A stretch of DNA of 56,961 nucleotides from contig JAPSLU010000009.1 in assembly GCA_031180405.1 (NCBI GenBank), positions 1-56,961 of the forward strand, read 5' to 3'. The stretch's first letter is position 1. Every line of letters starts with the position of its first letter. Of the stretch, positions 18,845 to 31,672 are shown in pieces. This stretch comes from Bacillus sp. (in: firmicutes) (GTDB lineage: Bacteria > Bacillota > Bacilli > Bacillales > Bacillaceae). The notes beneath the pieces are model-generated. The model was given only the letters and a program-made list of their open reading frames with translations. It was not told the DNA's origin and searched no databases. Position numbers and translations under genes: made by a program.

Positions 18845-19411
18845 CTATAGGTTAACATCAATCTTTACCTCATATTCTCCTTTTTCAATTCCTATATACC
18901 TAAGAGTTTCTGCACGTGTTGAATGATTAAAAATATCCTGCAGTAATGAAACAGCAATACCTTTCCGGTAGGCATGATATCCAAAGGTTTTCCGTAAAGT
19001 ATGTGTTCCAATCTTTTCAGACATTCCCACATCACGTGCTACATTATGGATAATACGATATGCTTGTTGTCTAGTAATGGGCTGATTATTTTTTTTTGAT
19101 TTAAAAAGATAATCTTCCTCATGTAGATTAGCTGCTTTTAAATAATCAAGTAATGCTGTTTTAACCTTATTATTTATATAAAATTTTTTATTAGATAAAG
19201 GACTTTTTGATTCAATCAATACATAGTACTCCTTGATTTGTTGGCCATCAATTACATCGCTTACTTTAATTTTTAATAAATGGCTAACAAGAAGTCCTGT
19301 ATTAATTCCAAAGACAAATAACAAGTAATCTCTATGAGATTTTGCTTTTAGGATTTTTTTTATATCTTCGATGGTTTTGATATCCTTAATCGCTTCAACA
19401 TATTCCACCAA
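18845..19411 (-). CDS. Integrase-like tyrosine recombinase catalytic domain lacking the first Arg
   Basis: 188 aa, catalytic domain only, with no N-terminal arm- or core-binding domain. The motifs THTLRKTFG (His137, Arg140), FNHSTRAETL (His163) and RYIG (Tyr172) are intact. The box that normally reads TGLR-I/V-S-x-L is TGLLVSHLL, so catalytic Arg I is Leu41 (codon CTT, one base from CGT). Cleavage activity is therefore doubtful. No att sites or element boundaries are seen nearby. It could be a solitary chromosomal family member, a DNA-binding derivative or an early pseudogene. Confidence 0.82.
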   Translation of the reverse strand: MVEYVEAIKDIKTIEDIKKILKAKSHRDYLLFVFGINTGLLVSHLLKIKVSDVIDGQQIKEYYVLIESKSPLSNKKFYINNKVKTALLDYLKAANLHEEDYLFKSKKNNQPITRQQAYRIIHNVARDVGMSEKIGTHTLRKTFGYHAYRKGIAVSLLQDIFNHSTRAETLRYIGIEKGEYEVKIDVNL

Positions 19412-19761: not shown

Positions 19762-20184
19762 TTATAAACAACTACTTGGATACCCTATATTACGGCTCCA
19801 AAAGTTAGAGGATAATGGTGATTAGACTCCCGCTTGCTGATATTAAGCTATCCCCGATCTTCACCTTTGTGTGTCTTTGTTTAATTCCTCTCATTTTCAT
19901 TAAATATGAATTCAAAAATATATGTATGTTTTGGTTATCCTTTTTAAATGTTTTCTCAACATTTATTTCTAAATCCCTTTACGTTGAGTTTTTCAAGAAG
20001 TATGTAAGCTATACTTCCGTAAAACTTATTGCAAAGGAAATTTTCCTATTATTTCATAGGATTTTTGATAAGTCGTTTTTAAATACTCCTACAAATGATC
20101 TTTTAATTTATGAAAATTATGACTGAAAATGTCGGATGAATAGTAGTTTAAAGTATTATGATTTGTTGTTAAAATAATAATTGT

Positions 20185-20350
20185 GTCGAGTTGAGGTGGG
20201 ATAGCGATCCTGTCTTCACCTTAAGTTGAATTCTGTTTTTTACAATAACAGTTGGTTTAATAGTAGTGATCCTGCTTAAAGCTAACCGTCATTCTACTTA
20301 AATCATGCTATTTTTTGCATGGTTAAGTTCGTATTGGCGGTTTTTTATTT
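20185..20350 (+). ncRNA. Probable structured small RNA: two motif-bearing hairpins plus terminator
   Basis: Three hairpins follow one another. Hairpin 1 has stem TTGAGGTG/CACCTTAA (20191-20224) and a loop containing ATAGCGATCCTGTCTT. Hairpin 2 has stem TTGGTTTAA/TTAAAGCTAA (about 20252-20286) and a loop containing AGTAGTGATCCTGC. Hairpin 3 is a long terminator: AACCGTCA/TGGCGGTT, CTTAA/TTAAG and CATGC/GCATG (20284-20342), ending in a T tract. The repeated loop motif TAG(C/T)GATCCTG in two separate stems argues for a functional RNA. No coding frame explains it. The 5' end and promoter are uncertain. CsfG, the conserved sporulation RNA, is one family worth testing; I could not confirm it. Confidence 0.6.
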
Positions 20351-20416
20351 TTAAGAGACAAAAGAAGGATCTTATTTGAATAGAGCTTCACGAAATTATA
20401 GGGATGAGGAGGAGAA

Positions 20417-20578
20417 ATGATGGCAATTAACCAAACAAAAACATTATGTTCAGAAACGGTGTTATATAAAGGAATAAAGTGCAAGGTCATTTATGATTAT
20501 GGGAATGGTAATTATGAAATTTTATTTGGAGAGCAGATAGTATTAGTTCATGAAGATGATATACAATTGCCTATTTGA
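20417..20578 (+). CDS. Small protein of 53 aa, unknown function
   Basis: ATG at 20417 (or the adjacent ATG at 20420) follows GAGGAGGAG by 3-6 nt. The product starts MMAINQTKTLCSETVLYKG and ends EIVL-like: YEILFGEQIVLVHEDDIQL then PI. It looks like a small all-beta fold with alternating hydrophobic residues and two Cys (about 11 and 22). Codon usage and the strong ribosome-binding site make it a credible gene. It begins about 70 bp after the terminator of the small RNA. No family recognised. Confidence 0.65.
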   Translation: MMAINQTKTLCSETVLYKGIKCKVIYDYGNGNYEILFGEQIVLVHEDDIQLPI

Positions 20579-21068: not shown

Positions 21069-21095
21069 AGGAACTCCTAATTTACAGGAGTTCCT
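21069..21095. terminator. Hairpin, probable terminator
   Basis: AGGAACTCCT (21069-21078) pairs perfectly with AGGAGTTCCT (21086-21095). The T tract on the minus strand is imperfect (TTTCTTTTA). It may end transcription from the MFS gene about 250 bp upstream; the 21096-21348 stretch between them has no supported gene. Confidence 0.55.
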
Positions 21096-21348: not shown

Positions 21349-22614
21349 TTAAACTAACTCGTTTCTACGATTTAGAATTCTATACAAAATAAAACAGCAC
21401 AATGAGCATAAAACAGCCAATAATGCGATAAATCCATATCCGGCCTGTAAGCCAATAAGTTCATTTTCACCATTACTAAGGAATTTAGATACGAAATCAA
21501 TAATAAACCCAATCATGAGATTTCCAACCACACTTGCAATTCCCATCAAGGTCACAGTAAACGTAATAGCTGTTCCAGTGCCTTTCGGATATCGTTTTGC
21601 TAGAAGTGCCATAACAGTTGGATAAATTAACGCAATACCGATTCCAGAAATGGCAAATAAGATTGCCCCCTGTTCTCCAATTATGATAGCTGCGAAGCTG
21701 CAGATCCCTGAAAATGCTGAAAAAAACATGATTGATCGAGTAAATCCTATTTTATCCGTAATTGGTCCAAGGACTAGTCGTGAAAGCATAAAAAACAGGA
21801 AAAACATTGATAACATATTTGATGCATCTTTTAGTTCCCATTGATAAGCCTTCACTAAGTAATTGATTAACCAACCTCCAACAGCAAGCTCTGAAACAAC
21901 CCCAAAAGATAGAATGGCAACGATTATCCAAGCTATCTTGTCCTTCAGGAGAGATTTGTACGATAGCGTAGAGGATTCTTCAACATTCTCTTTTGGAAAT
22001 TTCCCTATTAATGAGGGAATAATTGGCAGTATTGAAAAACACAAAATAAACAAATACATACCACGCCAACCGAATTGTTCTCCGCCTAACCCATTCCAGC
22101 CCATAATTGAAGCTGCCATAATAGGAGCAACTGTCGAGCTTAACCCATAAAAAAAGTGAGAAAGATTCATCATTGTCCCAGTATTTTTAGTGAAAATTTG
22201 GGCTGCCATAATTCCTAATCCAATTTCAAGCATACCGTTTCCAATATATAAAAAGAAGAAGGATGCAGACAAAGAAGGAAACGTTGTGGAAAAAAAGATA
22301 AAAAATCCAGCTAAAGCCATTGATAAAAAAGCAGCAATTCCTGTCCACTTTAATCCAATTTTTTGGCAAAGTGTTGAGGTGAAAAAACAGGCTAATAAAT
22401 AACCTAGTGAATTTAAAGCCAAAAGTACACCTAGATTAGTTTGACTTAATTGGAAATCACTTTGAATTACAGGAATAGCTGGACCTCTTACGTTTTCAGA
22501 AAATCCAAAGATTAAAAAACCACCAAAGACAATCAACAGCATTATATAATAGTTATATTTAGGATTTCGTGTTGCAGCTTTAAGTGGGGGGTGCTTGTAT
22601 TCTAGATCATTCAT
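21349..22614 (-). CDS. MFS transporter
   Basis: 421 aa with 12 predicted transmembrane helices in two bundles separated by a cytoplasmic loop (about 205-230). Motifs: GFSENVRGPAIPVIQSDF in helix 1, a conserved-motif-A-like region CQKIGLKW after helix 2, and DKIGFTRS after helix 8. The overall pattern resembles the FucP/YfkF-like sugar and general transporters, but the substrate cannot be assigned. GAAAGGG precedes the ATG. Monocistronic. Confidence 0.85.
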   Translation of the reverse strand: MNDLEYKHPPLKAATRNPKYNYYIMLLIVFGGFLIFGFSENVRGPAIPVIQSDFQLSQTNLGVLLALNSLGYLLACFFTSTLCQKIGLKWTGIAAFLSMALAGFFIFFSTTFPSLSASFFFLYIGNGMLEIGLGIMAAQIFTKNTGTMMNLSHFFYGLSSTVAPIMAASIMGWNGLGGEQFGWRGMYLFILCFSILPIIPSLIGKFPKENVEESSTLSYKSLLKDKIAWIIVAILSFGVVSELAVGGWLINYLVKAYQWELKDASNMLSMFFLFFMLSRLVLGPITDKIGFTRSIMFFSAFSGICSFAAIIIGEQGAILFAISGIGIALIYPTVMALLAKRYPKGTGTAITFTVTLMGIASVVGNLMIGFIIDFVSKFLSNGENELIGLQAGYGFIALLAVLCSLCCFILYRILNRRNELV

Positions 22615-31403: not shown

Positions 31404-31672
31404 ACCGTGCACCTCTTATTGTTATGGTCACATAAGTGTTACTAATGTAGCCAGCTCAATCAGGGCTACCCTGCGGCACACAGACGAATCTACTTATGGC
31501 TGCTCCCTTCCAGGCCTGACCAGTTTCATAGATGTCTGTTGCGCGGACCCCAATGGTCATCACCGCTTACATAAGGCAAACCTTACATGAACCATACCGC
31601 TAAAGAGGAATTTGACCCTGCTAAGGCGGATTGCAGGTTACAGGGCACCGCCAGCTCCCCATCTAGCACGGT
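31404..31672 (-). ncRNA. scr: Signal recognition particle RNA, large Bacillus type
   Basis: The minus strand contains the universal domain IV, GGTCAGGCCTGGAAGGGAGC followed by AGCC: the TCAGG/AGCAG internal loop and the GGAA tetraloop that bind Ffh. The Alu domain is also present (GCTAGATGGGGAGCTGGCGG, CCCTGTAACC, and the GTGCCGCAGGGTAGCC loop). The ends pair: ACCGTGC (31672-31666) with GCACGGT (31410-31404), giving about 269 nt, right for Bacillus scRNA. It works with Ffh and HBsu in protein targeting. It is not next to dnaX here, which is its usual neighbour. Confidence 0.93.

Follow-up and report, generated by a model that had tools for sequence, protein, structure and literature searches.

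In guanidine-II riboswitches, small tandem hairpins with the loop letters ACGR lie near a terminator and bind a small molecule directly. CsfG, a hairpin RNA, lies between ylbG and ylbH and shows sigma-F/sigma-G expression in the forespore. CsfG is treated in PMC9147052, PMC3871023 and PMC3574147. According to excerpts of PMC3369931, leaders controlled by ANTAR proteins (EutV/NasR/AmiR) carry two small, similarly looped hairpins, the second overlapping a terminator, and act by antitermination in cis; in the eutP leader 24 nt separate the conserved loop adenines A29 and A53. Guanidine-IV and Gd4v RNAs likewise place small hairpins beside a terminator, guanidine-IV being an ON switch (excerpts of PMC7736828 and PMC9788692). 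The Moco RNA motif shares a gene theme with the element described below, namely molybdenum cofactor synthesis and Moco enzymes, and the opening of the abstract that describes it names no Bacilli (PMC2408646). In passages of PMC8632094, PMC11109978, PMC10043782 and PMC7266159, fhsA, a motif from Leptotrichia and environmental DNA, was the one formate-related motif seen.

We analysed a 56,961-nt stretch of Bacillus sp. DNA (the window), in which a predicted structured leader precedes a small open reading frame (Table 1). The original prediction had seen two stem-loops with a common core motif running into an intrinsic terminator. Folding and shuffled controls confirmed this arrangement: the fold energy of the region was -52.2 kcal/mol vs -32.2 kcal/mol for dinucleotide shuffles (z -4.9, 0/200), and a same-strand pair of TAG[CT]GATCCTG at most 120 nt apart occurred once in the window and in 0/300 dinucleotide shuffles, the motif having been picked for this test after it had been seen. 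Both hairpins carry the same 11-mer core, and the exact 11-mer occurs five times in the genome itself, twice in the window, once in a second copy of the element (C438:1774-1871, between a divergent fdhD and an OFA-type MFS gene) and twice as singles elsewhere. The core had been placed in the loop of both hairpins. It does lie at the apex of each, but if the AG/CU pairs are formed, the unpaired loop is just CGATC or TGATC and the shared 11-mer is mostly stem.

Table 1. Predicted parts of the leader and the reading frame behind it (window coordinates)
Feature	Position	Strand	Details	Basis
Putative promoter	20147..20175	+	TTTAAA, 17 nt, TAAAAT (TG before TAAAAT)	consensus scan, 9/12 letters
Hairpin P1	20186..20229	+	loop CGATC 20205-20209; core TAGCGATCCTG 20202-20212	minimum-energy fold
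Hairpin P2	20253..20284	+	loop TGATC 20267-20271; core TAGTGATCCTG 20264-20274	fold, covariation
Antiterminator (extended P2)	20248..20289	+	5' arm 20248-20258; 3' arm 20279-20289	fold, covariation
Intrinsic terminator	20284..20346	+	5' arm 20284-20291; 3' arm 20335-20342; U run 20341-20346	fold
Shine-Dalgarno-like site	20406..20414	+	GAGGAGGAG, upstream of 53-aa ORF	sequence
53-aa ORF	20417..20578	+	most likely gene under leader control	

Transcription would start at about 20182. Promoter-like sites in the region numbered nine vs 11.9 expected in shuffles, so that the listed site is weak alone. A terminator scan confined to loops of 3-8 passed over the terminator, which folding reveals. The antiterminator was seen when the leader was truncated at 20290 or 20300 before folding, and it has 5 nt in common with the terminator. 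Cutting at 20310 or 20320 produced a third pairing in place of the antiterminator, and the switching of this copy therefore looks less clean than that of the copies in fdh operons.

The window element matched no Rfam 15 family at gathering score, in keeping with the suggestion that the family may not yet be described. Matches below gathering at the site (snoR24, rliF and others) scored far below their gathering scores and were rejected. Scans of 17 related loci also gave no match on the element; nine of these loci had no match of any kind, and at E up to 1 the other eight yielded, all off the element, a c-di-GMP-I riboswitch in L082, a group II intron in L092 and a microRNA match below gathering in L091. 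The c-di-GMP-I riboswitch (L082:2413-2500, - strand, 80.1 bits) lies on the same strand as, and upstream of, a gene that adjoins the chemoreceptor copy and whose protein is EAL-like by eye. The group II intron (L092:493-563, 40.9 bits, gathering 40) was also noted with L113:5704-6993 in genome G159, where it lies at the end of a reverse-transcriptase-like ORF (by eye) beside fdhD. None of the open-licence papers listed by our literature search, which compared the 2017 study of 224 motifs via Rfam 15 only, described the element.

The possible match to CsfG (ylbH RNA, RF00516) raised in the original prediction failed. RF00516 gave no match in the window, even at E 10, and was found on another contig of the same genome (C265:1403-1529, 104.6 bits), in a sequence that by eye lacks the core motif. 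The neighbours of the window element are an integrase-family gene (PF00589), the 53-aa ORF and an MFS gene, not ylbG or ylbH. Both RNAs come from Bacillaceae and contain hairpins, but they differ in locus and sequence, and that the element is the forespore sRNA of the ylbG-ylbH region has next to no probability.

Relatives were collected in several ways. Blastn gave matches in 20/100 genomes, own genome included, some of them short and probably due to chance. A DNA pattern for hairpin 2 matched 20 stretches of named contigs, 19 of them under Bacillaceae-type genus names. One locus (L052), labelled Pseudomonas sp. ISL-84, is of Cytobacillus type, and the label is probably wrong since both sequence and context resemble Cytobacillus loci. 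A viral match (L056) had one core and no gene of the set in view, and was taken as chance. We built a covariance model, R1, on the window element together with 30 relatives (31 sequences in all); the window's score of 85.2 bits is thus high by construction. With stricter filters for searches of more than 40 genomes applied throughout, and the genome of the window counted in each sample, R1 found the element in 17/80 genomes of the family, nine of which had contributed sequences to the model, in 24/398 genomes of the class, and in 69/397 genomes and 32/136 genera of the order, where some genomes may be of the same species as named contigs in R1. In the phylum sample (n=378) the genome of the window alone matched, and the element was seen only in Bacilli.

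To follow the structure across relatives, 48 elements were aligned (alignment A3). They were fitted to the R1 structure, which favours pairing and against which a control with slid partners guards in part, and include close relatives, so that rows are not independent. Under these conditions 97.6% of cells were paired vs at most 46.9% when partners were slid by 1-3 columns. Cells changed on both sides numbered 80 vs 22.4 in shuffles (0/500), and 8/20 pairs had changes on both sides, a number reached by 14/500 shuffles. The P1 helix of eight pairs was paired in 98.2% of cells; its innermost two pairs (A-U, G-C) are invariant in A3 and hence unproven by covariation. Across families the base of P2 changes from GTTGG/CTAAC to GTTGA/TTAAC (columns 101-131: GC 32, AU 15), and the antiterminator extension covaries as well (columns 93-139: AU 27, GC 11). 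Covariation of both stems over the 48 elements and conservation of the loop motif among relatives are what would be expected if the original prediction of a structured RNA was right.

The core consensus of both hairpins is AG-CG-N(2-4)-C-CU, and in the 31-sequence alignment the AG-CG letters and the CCTG-type flanks vary little or not at all in either core. The search pattern requires G as the second loop letter and C as the last, and the invariance of these two letters rests on that alignment. In the 43/48 rows where the pattern found both cores, P1 loops were CGNNC in 42/43 and 5 nt long in 42/43, the remaining one being 7 nt; P2 loops had 5 or 6 nt, the first letter of either loop was C, T or G, and the cores lay 47-67 nt apart. 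Kissing of the two loops through GATC was set aside because the middle loop letters vary in both P1 and P2. These loops differ from those of ANTAR leaders, which are hexaloops with A1 and G4; here loops of 5-7 nt start with C, T or G, and the 47-67 nt between cores contrast with the 24 nt of eutP. The ANTAR domain PF03861 was absent from the window's own genome, with none over cut-off in 20 other genomes of the genus; among 100 relatives it was found in six at E 0.001, four of them over cut-off. ANTAR regulation was rejected for this genome, from which PF03861 is absent, and on the loop type.

We compared terminator and antiterminator by folding each separately. Overlap was at least 5 nt in 42/47 elements (median 9) and below 5 nt in 5/47; two of the four chemoreceptor elements had 0-1 nt. 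One of the 48 rows gave no terminator. The terminator alone was the more stable in 46/47, the exception being L076, for which no proper terminator was picked; single energies are rough, as in several rows the U run picked was not the one nearest the stem. The default state is therefore probably OFF.

As to gene context, in 113/113 places the nearest recognised same-strand gene downstream fell into a set of six types: OFA-type MFS transporters (96), chemoreceptors (9), DUF2294/MpsC (4), relatives of the 53-aa ORF (2), formate dehydrogenase (1) and FdhF/YdeP (1). The types were assigned with short self-made protein motifs derived from sequences already inspected, Pfam and NCBIfam backing being available for representatives, and the 113 come from 120 unique places, leaving out the window and G618, G687, G728, G767, G786 and G823. 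The distance from element to gene was at most 542 nt in 113/113, with no other + strand ORF of at least 100 aa wholly in between, shorter ORFs falling outside this criterion. The pattern found both cores in 106/113. Within the operon, extra copies, some consisting of hairpin 2 alone, precede FdhF/YdeP, fdhD or moeA-mobB; those before FdhF are often single-hairpin.

A terminator and an antiterminator that overlap ahead of a gene are the mark of an antitermination leader, and the element presents this arrangement in its overlaps and its placement alike. The competition of hairpin 2 with the terminator, together with the invariable gene placement, indicates action in cis. We conclude, from folds, covariation and gene order, that the element is probably a default-OFF, cis-acting 5' leader of transcription antitermination, which would be turned ON when a factor engages the loops of P1 and P2. 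The factor-free leader would fold into the terminator and transcription would stop. A factor on both loops would hold P2 together, so that the terminator could not form and RNA polymerase would read on into the downstream gene. In the window, the gene so controlled would be the conserved 53-aa ORF.

The same results bear on the nature of the RNA product. A regulatory or protein-sequestering RNA had been proposed, and the first half of this proposal stands: the RNA is structured and probably regulatory. A free-standing regulatory or sequestering sRNA ended by its own terminator could be imagined, as termination would leave a structured RNA of ~165 nt, yet we consider it very unlikely, given the fixed gene set downstream in all examined relatives, the overlap of terminator and antiterminator, and the several copies per operon.

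To describe the regulon, representatives of the gene types were compared with profiles. The transporter matched the SfMCT L-lactate MFS transporter profile (466.8 bits, cut-off 320) and scored below cut-off with the oxalate/formate antiporter models. The oxidoreductase belongs to the FdhF/YdeP family (TIGR01701, 910.7 bits), and MpsC (PF10057), MoeA, MobB and FdhD were identified in the same way. Chemoreceptor sensors were 4HB_MCP_1 in the genus of the window and sCache_3_3 in two other genomes. Chemoreceptors also lie beside the fdh operon at L119:3-1307 (sCache_3_3) and, by eye, at the start of L203, no element of their own being seen there. The predicted theme of the regulon is uptake of small carboxylates, a Mo-dependent formate-dehydrogenase-like enzyme with its cofactor, and chemotaxis. 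Judging from this gene set, the leader probably responds to formate, to a similar small carboxylate or to the redox state in which the enzymes are used. Among open-licence papers we found no described regulator of the Mo-dependent formate-dehydrogenase-like enzymes of Bacilli. The element seems to represent an RNA family not described before, whose switch architecture is clear and whose regulon is coherent, and it offers a handle on the control of these enzymes. Tentatively, at somewhat below even odds, we propose that it is a new class of natural sensor for formate, a like small carboxylate or the state of the formate-dehydrogenase machinery, in which the signal is recognised by the RNA or else by DUF2294/MpsC, the latter then founding a new family of RNA-binding antiterminators. 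If true, uptake, oxidation, cofactor supply and chemotaxis would be coupled in a single regulon of Bacilli under RNA control.

Were the hairpins to bind a small molecule directly (formate, another small carboxylate, molybdate or the molybdenum cofactor), the element would represent a new riboswitch class. The pair of small hairpins whose loop letters hardly vary, the ON-type terminator overlap and the association with several non-homologous gene families of one metabolic theme, sCache_3_3 chemoreceptors included, all suit such a riboswitch. Yet only 5-7 loop nucleotides are available, the middle ones variable, the distance between cores ranges over 20 nt in the 43 rows measured, and the element is confined to Bacilli as far as seen. 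Weighing these, we regard a riboswitch as quite possible but short of probable. Guanidine riboswitches, in the classes that Rfam 15 covers, gave no match in the window or the 17 loci; the gene types here include no guanidine exporter, the loop letters differ from those of guanidine-II, and guanidine-IV and Gd4v were rejected because the gene context does not fit. The Moco riboswitch likewise had no Rfam match in the window or the 17 other loci, and Moco as the ligand is hard to square with one and the same arrangement before moeA-mobB, a Moco enzyme and chemoreceptors.

If a protein reads the loops, DUF2294/MpsC is the leading candidate. Operon-type DUF2294 was present in exactly the 17/80 family genomes that have the element and in 69/69 element-bearing genomes of the order sample. 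It lay within 4 kb of the element in 66/69, and the co-occurrence is mostly linkage. In G761, DUF2294 lies behind a diverged tandem of its own. In G740, G759, L044, L046, L048 and L052 it adjoins a divergent fdhD, and no core was seen nearby; the last four have a transporter locus without DUF2294, yet DUF2294 is present. These six unlinked cases share the same neighbours and may represent one event. Ten further genomes had operon-type DUF2294 and no R1 match; by the core pattern alone, nine of them have a diverged tandem upstream of the transporter and one has a single core upstream of FdhF. Of the 63 family genomes that lack the element, 37 also have homologues of DUF2294 (23-45% identity).

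Between L042 and six distant loci, DUF2294 was 79-85% conserved vs 58-70% for OFA and 55-62% for FdhD, a comparison limited to these two partners because L042 lacks FdhF, with two OFA values from partial proteins. The predicted fold of DUF2294 (pLDDT 80) gave 259 PDB matches at E up to 10, none of them at E 0.001, and a search of open-licence literature under the name DUF2294 returned one unrelated paper only. The same facts also fit a role in enzyme assembly. Loop binding by DUF2294/MpsC is a candidate role that we rate as rather unlikely, and a direct small-molecule ligand is at least as likely. The proposal gives the DUF2294/MpsC of the fdh operon a testable role.

The window copy differs from most others in its downstream gene. 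The 53-aa ORF had no Pfam or NCBIfam match over cut-off. Four other genomes of the genus have homologues, all preceded by the element or by what is left of it, and so does one genome of another family; the homologue in G062 had no core in the 400 nt upstream. The window and L007 keep both hairpins, the P2 loop of L007 being changed. Among the five copies of the genus at the small-ORF locus, three (L008-L010) no longer have the P1 core, show a changed P2 loop and score 18-29 bits or less with R1. Such losses would suit a decaying paralogue of the fdh-operon leader without a function of its own, as would the 5-nt overlap of the window copy against the median of 9 and an ORF of no known family. 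We think this improbable for the window copy, because it retains both hairpins (the P1 base changed but paired), the antiterminator and the terminator, and because the element recurs with a homologous small ORF in the other-family genome G507 (L171). There, a tandem element scoring 63.2 bits lies upstream of a homologue with 41% identity to the window ORF over 44 aa (E 9e-14, pairwise comparison). We retain the antitermination leader as the preferred reading of the window copy too.

Other features of the window were noted in passing. The integrase-family gene adjoining the element (18845-19411, - strand) encodes a 188-aa protein and may be the remains of a mobile element. A terminator-like inverted repeat at 21069-21095, on both strands, separates the small ORF from the MFS gene (21349-22614). 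The sole gathering-level Rfam match in the window is a Bacterial large SRP RNA (RF01854, 193 bits) at 31405-31671 on the - strand.
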